From an uncultured Actinomycetes bacterium (GTDB lineage: Bacteria > Actinomycetota > Actinomycetes > S36-B12 > UBA10799), in the NCBI GenBank assembly GCA_946803585.1, contig CAMPEQ010000011.1, positions 310,001 through 374,000 on the forward strand: DNA of 64,000 bases. Reading direction: 5' to 3'. Shown in pieces: positions 38,539 through 42,742 of the stretch (the first letter of the stretch is position 1; each line of letters begins with the position of its first letter). Position numbers and translations under genes: made by a program. The notes under the pieces are model-generated. The model saw only the letters and a list, made by a program, of their open reading frames with translations, did not search any database and was not told where the DNA came from.

Positions 38539-38655
38539 TCAGCGACAAGTGCAGTGCTGATCGACTGGGAACCTGGCGAGCACCTGATCCACATGTTCGC
38601 CGCATCCGGTGTAGGTGATTTTCTGACACTGTTGACATCGAGCTGGACTACACAT
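38539..38655 (-). CDS. 38-residue cysteine-rich microprotein
   Basis: Found by reading the gap between larger genes. The product starts MCSPARCQQC and ends CTCR; it has Cys at 2, 7, 10, 18, 35 and 37 and His at 21 in a GCGEHV motif. GGAGG lies upstream of the ATG at good spacing. It is a paralogue of the 53-residue protein encoded divergently at 38834: all six Cys, Pro4, Tyr15, the GCGxHV block and Pro30 share identical positions. The pattern suggests a small metal-binding (zinc or copper) or thiol-active knuckle. The family occurs in actinobacteria but I know of no assigned function. Confidence 0.8.
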   Translation of the reverse strand: MCSPARCQQCQKITYTGCGEHVDQVLARFPVDQHCTCR

Positions 38656-38738
38656 CTTCTTGATCCTCCGTTTGTTCTTGGTACGGCACGTGCGGATTGA
38701 GCTTCGCGGTTTCTACCACTTCAGCAAGAATAGCGGGC

Positions 38739-38767
38739 TTGGCACAATATACCCCAGGGGGTATAGT
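38739..38767 (+). promoter_or_regulatory. Sigma-70-type promoter of the microprotein/DUF302 genes
   Basis: TTGGCA (38739-38744), a 17-bp spacer and TATAGT (38762-38767) form a good promoter reading toward the 53-residue gene. The spacer is occupied by the palindrome described next, so a bound repressor would block polymerase. Confidence 0.7.
38748..38765. promoter_or_regulatory. CsoR-type operator palindrome
   Basis: TATACCCC-AG-GGGGTATA has perfect 8-bp arms. TACCC-N4-GGGTA palindromes of this kind are the operators of CsoR/CstR-family repressors that sense copper or persulfide. It lies between the -35 and -10 boxes and between the two divergent microprotein genes, so it may control both. 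No csoR gene lies in the window. Confidence 0.65.
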
Positions 38768-38833
38768 CTAGACATTGTTACGACGAGCCGTCTAGTCCCA
38801 GGCGGCCACGCCAACCATGGAGGTCTACCCACA

Positions 38834-38995
38834 ATGTGTCGTCCCGCAACCTGTCGCAAATGCAATAAGACCACCTACGCCGGCTGCGGTCAGCACGTCA
38901 AAGAGGCCGTCAGCGGAGTCCCTTCACGAGATCGCTGTAAGTGCGACAACGGCAAGCCTGCCAAGCGCACACTATTCGGCTGGGGTCAGCGCTAG
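38834..38995 (+). CDS. 53-residue cysteine-rich microprotein
   Basis: Starts MCRPATCRKC and has Cys at 2, 7, 10, 18, 35, 37, with His21 in GCGQHV. A basic C-terminal extension of about 16 residues ending FGWGQR is missing from its divergent 38-residue paralogue. Basic and cytosolic, with no signal peptide. The Cys spacing suggests metal or thiol chemistry; no established function. It is followed 37 bp later by the DUF302 gene in the same direction, probably one transcript. Confidence 0.82.
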   Translation: MCRPATCRKCNKTTYAGCGQHVKEAVSGVPSRDRCKCDNGKPAKRTLFGWGQR

Positions 38996-39032: not shown

Positions 39033-39419
39033 ATGTCTTACGCACTGACCGTCGCACTCGAGAGCCCGTTCGATACCGCGATCGAGCAGGTACGCGCTGC
39101 ACTGACCGAACAAGGGTTTGGGGTGATAACCGAAATTGACATGAAGGCCACCCTGCACAAGAAGATCGGGGCAGAGATCGACAACCAGGTCATCCTTGGT
39201 GCGTGCAATCCGGAGTTCGCCCACAAGGCAATCCAGGCCGAACCCTCAATCGGAGTCCTGCTGCCGTGCAACGTTGTCGTTCGATCGACGGGCGAGACGA
39301 CAACAGTCGAGATGATCAATCCCCAGATGATGGTCGACCTGACGGCCAATCCGGTAATGGCGGGACTGGCCCACGAAGTGTCTGACCGCCTTGAGGCAGC
39401 GATAGAGAGCCTTCGGTAA
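39033..39419 (+). CDS. DUF302 domain protein
   Basis: 128 residues: YALTVALESPFDTAIEQVRAALTEQGFGVITEIDM, then the TLHKKIGAEIDNQVILGACNP and GVLLPCNVVV strands typical of DUF302. The fold is small alpha/beta, and homologues often accompany copper, sulfur or thioredoxin genes; the biochemical role is unknown. AAGGAG lies ahead of the ATG at 39033. The frame extends upstream, but only this ATG gives the family N-terminus. Confidence 0.9.
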   Translation: MSYALTVALESPFDTAIEQVRAALTEQGFGVITEIDMKATLHKKIGAEIDNQVILGACNPEFAHKAIQAEPSIGVLLPCNVVVRSTGETTTVEMINPQMMVDLTANPVMAGLAHEVSDRLEAAIESLR

Positions 39420-42247: not shown

Positions 42248-42275
42248 GTTCATATACCCGTAGGGGTATGTGAAC
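42248..42275. promoter_or_regulatory. Second CsoR-type operator palindrome, upstream of thioredoxin
   Basis: GTTCATATACCC-GTAG-GGGTATGTGAAC has 12-nt arms with one mismatch and the core TACCC-N4-GGGTA, the same core and spacing as the site at 38748. It lies 84 bp before the trx ATG. I cannot place -35 and -10 boxes with confidence here. Confidence 0.65.
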
Positions 42276-42358: not shown

Positions 42359-42742
42359 ATGGCAAGCGTTACCTTGACCGCAGAGAACTTCGATAAGACC
42401 GTCGCCGACAACGACATCGTGTTGGTCGATTTCTGGGCGGAATGGTGTGGTCCGTGTAAGCAGTTTGGTCCAGTATTCGAGGGCGCGTCTGAGGGCCACG
42501 ACGGAATCGTCTTTGGAAAGGTCGACACTGAAGCGGAGCAATCGCTCGCGGCTGCCGCACAGATCACGTCGATCCCGACCTTGATGGCCTTCCGTGAAGG
42601 GGTCCTAGTCTTTAGCCAGCCAGGCGCCCTGCCCGCCAACAGCCTCGAAGAGCTCATCGGTGCTGTTAAAGATCTCGACATGGCCGATGTCCGGCGTCAG
42701 ATCGCCGAGGCGGCCGCAGCCGCCGACAAGGGCGACAGCTGA
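42359..42742 (+). CDS. Thioredoxin
   Basis: 127 residues with FWAEWCGPCKQF (active-site CGPC), SIPTLMAF (cis-Pro) and a C-terminal Ala/Glu-rich helix. Reduces protein disulfides in the cytosol. AGGAGAAG precedes the ATG at 42359. It stands alone, without thioredoxin reductase, and under a TACCC-N4-GGGTA operator, suggesting a specialised stress-induced thioredoxin rather than the housekeeping one. Confidence 0.95.
   Translation: MASVTLTAENFDKTVADNDIVLVDFWAEWCGPCKQFGPVFEGASEGHDGIVFGKVDTEAEQSLAAAAQITSIPTLMAFREGVLVFSQPGALPANSLEELIGAVKDLDMADVRRQIAEAAAAADKGDS

Follow-up and report, generated by a model that had tools for sequence, protein, structure and literature searches.

The window that we analysed is a stretch of 64,000 nucleotides from an uncultured Actinomycetes bacterium, in which two cysteine-rich microproteins of 38 and 53 residues are encoded back to back on opposite strands, ahead of a DUF302 gene (Table 1). 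The initial annotation had described the two ORFs as paralogues, and their coordinates and relationship were confirmed, the long protein as query finding the short one at E=8e-9 with 45% identity. No match besides itself and this paralogue was returned from the whole 2.7-Mb genome. As had been claimed, Cys 2, 7, 10, 18, 35 and 37, His21, Pro4, Tyr15 and Pro30 stand at the same positions in both proteins, and the minus-strand gene does carry a GGAGG ribosome binding site. The DUF302 gene, which is the only one found in a search of the genome, is probably co-transcribed with the long gene.

Table 1. Genes and predicted regulatory elements of the microprotein locus, in coordinates of the window.
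Feature	Coordinates	Strand	Details
Short paralogue	38539..38655	-	38 aa, MCSPARCQQCQKITYTGCGEHVDQVLARFPVDQHCTCR, ends CTCR; six Cys and His21
RBS GGAGG of short gene	38665..38669	-	Read from the sequence; upstream ACAAACGGAGGATCAAGAAG
Promoter of long gene, sigma-70-type TTGGCA-17-TATAGT	38739..38767	+	1 found vs 0.2 expected
CstR-type operator ATACCCC-AG-GGGGTAT	38749..38764	.	2-base spacer; exact 14/14, predicted
RBS GGAGG of long gene	38819..38823	+	Read from the sequence
Long paralogue	38834..38995	+	53 aa, MCRPATCRKCNKTTYAGCGQHVKEAVSGVPSRDRCKCDNGKPAKRTLFGWGQR, Cys/His core and basic/aromatic tail
DUF302 protein	39033..39419	+	Pfam PF03625, E=3.4e-23; 37 bp downstream of long gene
Second operator ATACCCG-TA-GGGGTAT	42254..42269	.	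About 90 bp ahead of thioredoxin start
Thioredoxin (WCGPC)	42359..42742	+	Pfam PF00085, E=3.1e-25; start MASVTL; behind second operator

Relatives of the microproteins were found in 4/4 genomes of the genus, in 131 of the 166 genomes of the order, and in 48 of the 396 genomes sampled across the phylum. In the 37-residue core, comparison with the nearest homologue gave a pN of 0.17 and a pS of 0.68 for the short gene of the window, and a pN of 0.13 and a pS of 0.63 for the long gene, while two other members (L001 and L003) differ by 16 synonymous changes and no nonsynonymous change. The 38-residue frame, on whose conservation in relatives the initial annotation had made its reading depend, is thus under purifying selection. 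Because relatives extend across genus, order, and phylum and purifying selection is strong, the ORFs are not ascribed to chance, and both can be taken as genuine genes of an unnamed, widely conserved actinobacterial microprotein family. Members of the short subtype have 37-39 residues and usually end in C-T-C-R, those of the long subtype carry a tail, often with a GFF-x-R-LFGR end, and both subtypes are present at several loci. Unlike the LFGR type, the tails of three members (L010 551-694, L001 5518-5682, and L003 5550-5714) end in GWLPR or TWLPR, and these are possibly a third subtype. Similar short sequences presumably occur in fungi as well.

Searches with single members and with alignments against Pfam, NCBIfam, and PHROGs gave no family above the curated cut-off, and sequence searches of the PDB gave no matching entry, which bears out that no named family covers it, the initial annotation having known no function for it. 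The C-x2-C and C-x2-H elements are like those of the LRP1/DUF702-type zinc finger (TIGR01623, PF05142) and of YyzF/CxxH (PF14116, TIGR04129); membership in either was rejected, as the scores were only sub-threshold. A full-text literature search for the motifs and peptides of the family found no paper, and a search for descriptions of CstR regulons that include a small Cys-rich protein found nothing relevant. Plasmid records annotate members at best as ‘hypothetical protein’, the PLSDB gene table being incomplete, so that an absent annotation there is no proof of none, and no plasmid match outside Actinomycetota was seen among the matches listed. A scan of viral contigs yielded no relative. 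The single match from a phage collection (L172, MT835623.1 13139-24304) is filed as ‘UNVERIFIED: Bacteriophage sp.’; it carries, in order, TauE, persulfide dioxygenase/rhodanese, rhodanese, and microprotein genes, a bacterial-looking sulfur operon, and is probably a contig of bacterial DNA entered among the phages by mistake.

The initial annotation had also placed an operator-like element of metal or sulfur type between the two genes, and a palindrome is indeed present there (Table 1). This predicted operator fills the spacer of the promoter of the long gene and extends into its -10 element, a layout that is visible at several other loci too. A genome-wide scan allowing at most one mismatch returned four sites, which lie in the intergenic region of a cstR-like and a CoA-disulfide-reductase-like gene, at the microprotein pair, ahead of the thioredoxin gene of the window, and beside a tRNA-like stretch. 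In the first of these (L157, L159; G000:C10:46247-48000), the CstR-like repressor gene is divergent from the gene of the flavoprotein, and one exact operator is common to both. The last (L162; G000:C11:466728-466743) has one mismatch and no clear target gene, and a cation diffusion facilitator-like gene lies ∼0.5-1.4 kb from it. The thioredoxin gene probably belongs to the same regulon as the microproteins; its operator, ∼3.4 kb downstream, suggests that a sulfur-stress regulon is spread along this stretch of the window.

The half-sites ATACCCC...GGGGTAT are like those of the Streptomyces CsoR copper operator, but the published consensus of the latter has a 3-base spacer and copZA as targets (PMC3902906), unlike the 2-base spacer and the sulfur genes found here. 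The copper csoR gene of the same genome adjoins copA and its site has a 3-base spacer. Since that site resembles the Streptomyces consensus and the window and cstR-type sites have two bases, spacer length appears to separate the CstR and copper CsoR regulons in this genome. Of the two options that the initial annotation had left for the element, the sulfur type (CstR, 2-base spacer) looks right and a copper CsoR site of the 3-base type does not. Among 105 sampled family genes, 48 have an operator of at least 12/14 within 200 bp upstream, with a spacer of nearly always 2 bases, and the other 57 are without a recognisable upstream operator. In 1.31 Mb of loci, the sites of at least 13/14 comprised 82 with spacer 2, one with spacer 1, and two with spacer 3; these loci were selected for the family, and the operator excess is to be read as enrichment by position within them. 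Directly preceding a family gene are 47 of the 82 spacer-2 sites, and others precede cstR, rhodanese, DUF302, or thioredoxin genes.

The two-gene module under one operator that had been proposed holds for this genome but is not general. A divergent pair with one common operator was found in the window and in another family of the order (L130). Elsewhere the genes are in tandem (L005, L007, and L008), parted by a thioredoxin gene (L006 and L009), convergent (the two long-type members of L001 and L003), or under separate operators at a distance of kilobases (L134 and L153). In view of these arrangements, the shared operator is one layout and not a defining feature of the family.

A tabulation of neighbours, which the initial annotation had suggested, brought out sulfane-sulfur genes. 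Recurrent near the family at 91 loci are genes for rhodanese, CstR-type repressor, thioredoxin, DUF302, TauE, and sulfide:quinone-reductase-like proteins, the names of neighbours being assigned by us from their sequences unless Pfam or a record annotation is cited, and the DUF302 counts being lower bounds because the crude gene calling missed the DUF302 gene of the window itself. Between genes within 1.5 kb (384) and genes at 4-8 kb (482), the counts were 14 vs 0 for CstR (p=1e-5), 27 vs 3 for rhodanese (p=1.4e-7), and 7 vs 0 for thioredoxin (p=0.003). No sulfur gene was detected within 1.5 kb at 56 of the 91 loci; given this and the 57 of 105 members without an operator, regulation appears to vary among members of the family. 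All 21 CsoR-family proteins encoded nearby have two Cys and none has the copper-ligand His. In this genome, one CsoR-family protein (L157, ...RDCKDV...SGIRQC...) likewise has two Cys and is without the copper His, and the other (L156) has the His and sits before copA. The regulon is supported further by plasmid contexts (pRHL3, pdjl-6-4) and by the gene order of contig L172; on Rhodococcus plasmids the microprotein gene occurs with genes for an MBL-fold hydrolase, thioredoxin, rhodanese, ‘metal-sensitive transcriptional regulator’, DUF2892, and DUF302. As the operator is of the cstR-adjacent type, a two-Cys CsoR-family protein is encoded, and sulfane-sulfur genes lie at the locus and operator, membership of the pair in the CstR persulfide regulon is, at the level of sequence, well supported.

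Such a regulon is of a known kind. In the sections of PMC7533328 drawn on here, the CstR-like repressor of S. coelicolor senses sulfane sulfur, which removes it from DNA, and has persulfide dioxygenase, rhodanese, and a sulfite transporter under its control. The present system is like the S. aureus cst operon and the S. coelicolor ScCsoR-PDO-rhodanese-TauE circuit, as far as these sections and those of PMC5480029 describe them, both in its CsoR-family repressor, which has two Cys but not the metal His, and in its rhodanese, persulfide dioxygenase, TauE, and sulfide:quinone-reductase-like neighbours. It is unlike them in the prominence of microproteins, thioredoxin, and DUF302, the same sections mentioning no Cys-rich microprotein. 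We rate the microproteins as a new and uncharacterised part of a regulon whose kind is known.

Invariant in 101 distinct members are Cys2, Cys7, Cys10, Gly17, Cys18, Gly19, His21, and Cys35. Of 104 sequences, 19 are without Cys37, and every one of these has Gly37 followed by His at position 38 or 39, which compares with a His within residues 38-40 in only 3 of the 85 sequences that keep Cys37. Mutual replacement of Cys and His is expected of a metal ligand. The exchange of Cys37 for Gly-His is likely a swap of this type and supports some metal binding, so that the small metal site of the initial annotation now seems likely. The AlphaFold model of the short form is fairly confident (pLDDT 85) and predicts hairpin strands at 3-6 and 13-16 and a helix at 19-26, with C7-x2-C10 in the hairpin turn and the helix start adjoining C18-x2-H21. 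This predicted secondary structure would fit a zinc knuckle or treble-clef-like pattern, for which a C-x2-C in a hairpin and a pair of ligands where a helix begins are expected. The model of the long form is weak (pLDDT 68), and fold searches with both models gave no significant structural match. Since Met1 directly precedes a Cys, the mature microproteins may, by the specificity of methionine aminopeptidase, start at Cys2.

Taken together, we propose that the pair are zinc-structured thiol microproteins of the CstR persulfide regulon that handle sulfane sulfur, an explanation in three steps to which, as a whole, we give about even chances. In the first, for which the sequence evidence is strong, a CstR-type repressor would bind ATACCCC-N2-GGGGTAT inside the promoter and block transcription. 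Reactive sulfane sulfur would then modify the cysteines of CstR, the repressor would leave the DNA, and both microproteins, DUF302, thioredoxin, and the CoA-disulfide-reductase-like enzyme would be made together; derepression by sulfide or polysulfide is proposed on the pattern of CstR in S. aureus and of the repressor in S. coelicolor. The fold of each microprotein would likely be built on a metal, most probably zinc, to which the C7-x2-C10 knuckle and C18-x2-H21 at the helix start bind; C35, C37 or its G-H substitute, and C2 close to the N-terminus would add further thiol or metal ligands. Finally, the thiols could accept, buffer, or relay sulfane sulfur between rhodanese, persulfide dioxygenase, and thioredoxin; alternatively, they could shield zinc and thiols in sulfide or persulfide stress. 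The role of sulfur carrier is our inference. Its boldest form is a new class of dedicated sulfane-sulfur carrier or buffer, in which the cysteines of zinc-structured microproteins, among them perhaps a Cys2 exposed by loss of the Met, take sulfur from rhodaneses and give it to thioredoxin or persulfide dioxygenase, the tailed and tailless forms sharing the work; we offer this tentatively, with the balance somewhat against it.

The same residues would also suit metallothionein-like buffers of zinc or copper, for metal that is freed or scarce in sulfide stress, the sulfur chemistry of the thiols being incidental. This reading is favoured by the presence of six Cys and a His in only 38 residues and by the His that takes over in every member without Cys37, but the strict spacing, Gly17, Gly19, and the aromatic residue at 15 suggest one defined fold and not a loose metal cluster, and operator and neighbours alike are of persulfide and not copper type; we consider it unlikely. 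MymT-type small bacterial metallothioneins are tiny, Cys-rich, and controlled by CsoR-family repressors, as the microproteins here appear to be. In contrast to them, the present family has an invariant spacing that includes His and Gly, and a persulfide-type regulon. Sulfide does trigger a zinc-limitation response in S. aureus, according to the sections of PMC5480029 drawn on here, which is in favour of a buffering role.

The predicted knuckle-hairpin-helix model, the sub-threshold similarity to LRP1-type zinc fingers, and the presence of tailed and tailless subtypes, often in one genome, would also fit zinc-finger-like adaptors that bind to an enzyme or a regulator in the sulfur pathway and control it. 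The FF-x-R/K-LF tail would then anchor the long form to a membrane or a partner, the short form having no such tail. This is quite doubtful, as neither model found a significant structural match and the tail in the clade of the window is RTLFGWG and not the FFxRLFGR seen elsewhere. Control by the copper sensor CsoR, with a copper-handling role like that of MymT of M. tuberculosis, would account for the Cys-rich composition and for an operator that shares the G/C-tract pseudopalindrome of CsoR and CstR sites; nevertheless, the spacer is of 2 bases and not 3, copA and copZ are absent from the recurrent neighbours of the 91 loci, and the regulators nearby are without the copper His, so that we rejected this explanation as very improbable. 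A last reading, in which the minus-strand ORF would be a chance frame or a remnant without function, has next to no credence and was rejected on the sequence evidence. Its length, under the usual annotation limits, is in favour, but the short subtype recurs with its invariant residues and has a pN far smaller than pS.

Reactive sulfur species have come to be regarded as general bacterial signals and stresses, and enzymes and transporters make up the CstR-type circuits known so far. Relatives that can be cultivated include Rhodococcus, Microbacterium, and Leucobacter. In essence, a conserved Cys-rich microprotein under a CstR operator would be a missing component of such circuits, one whose thiols are suited to carrying or buffering persulfide.
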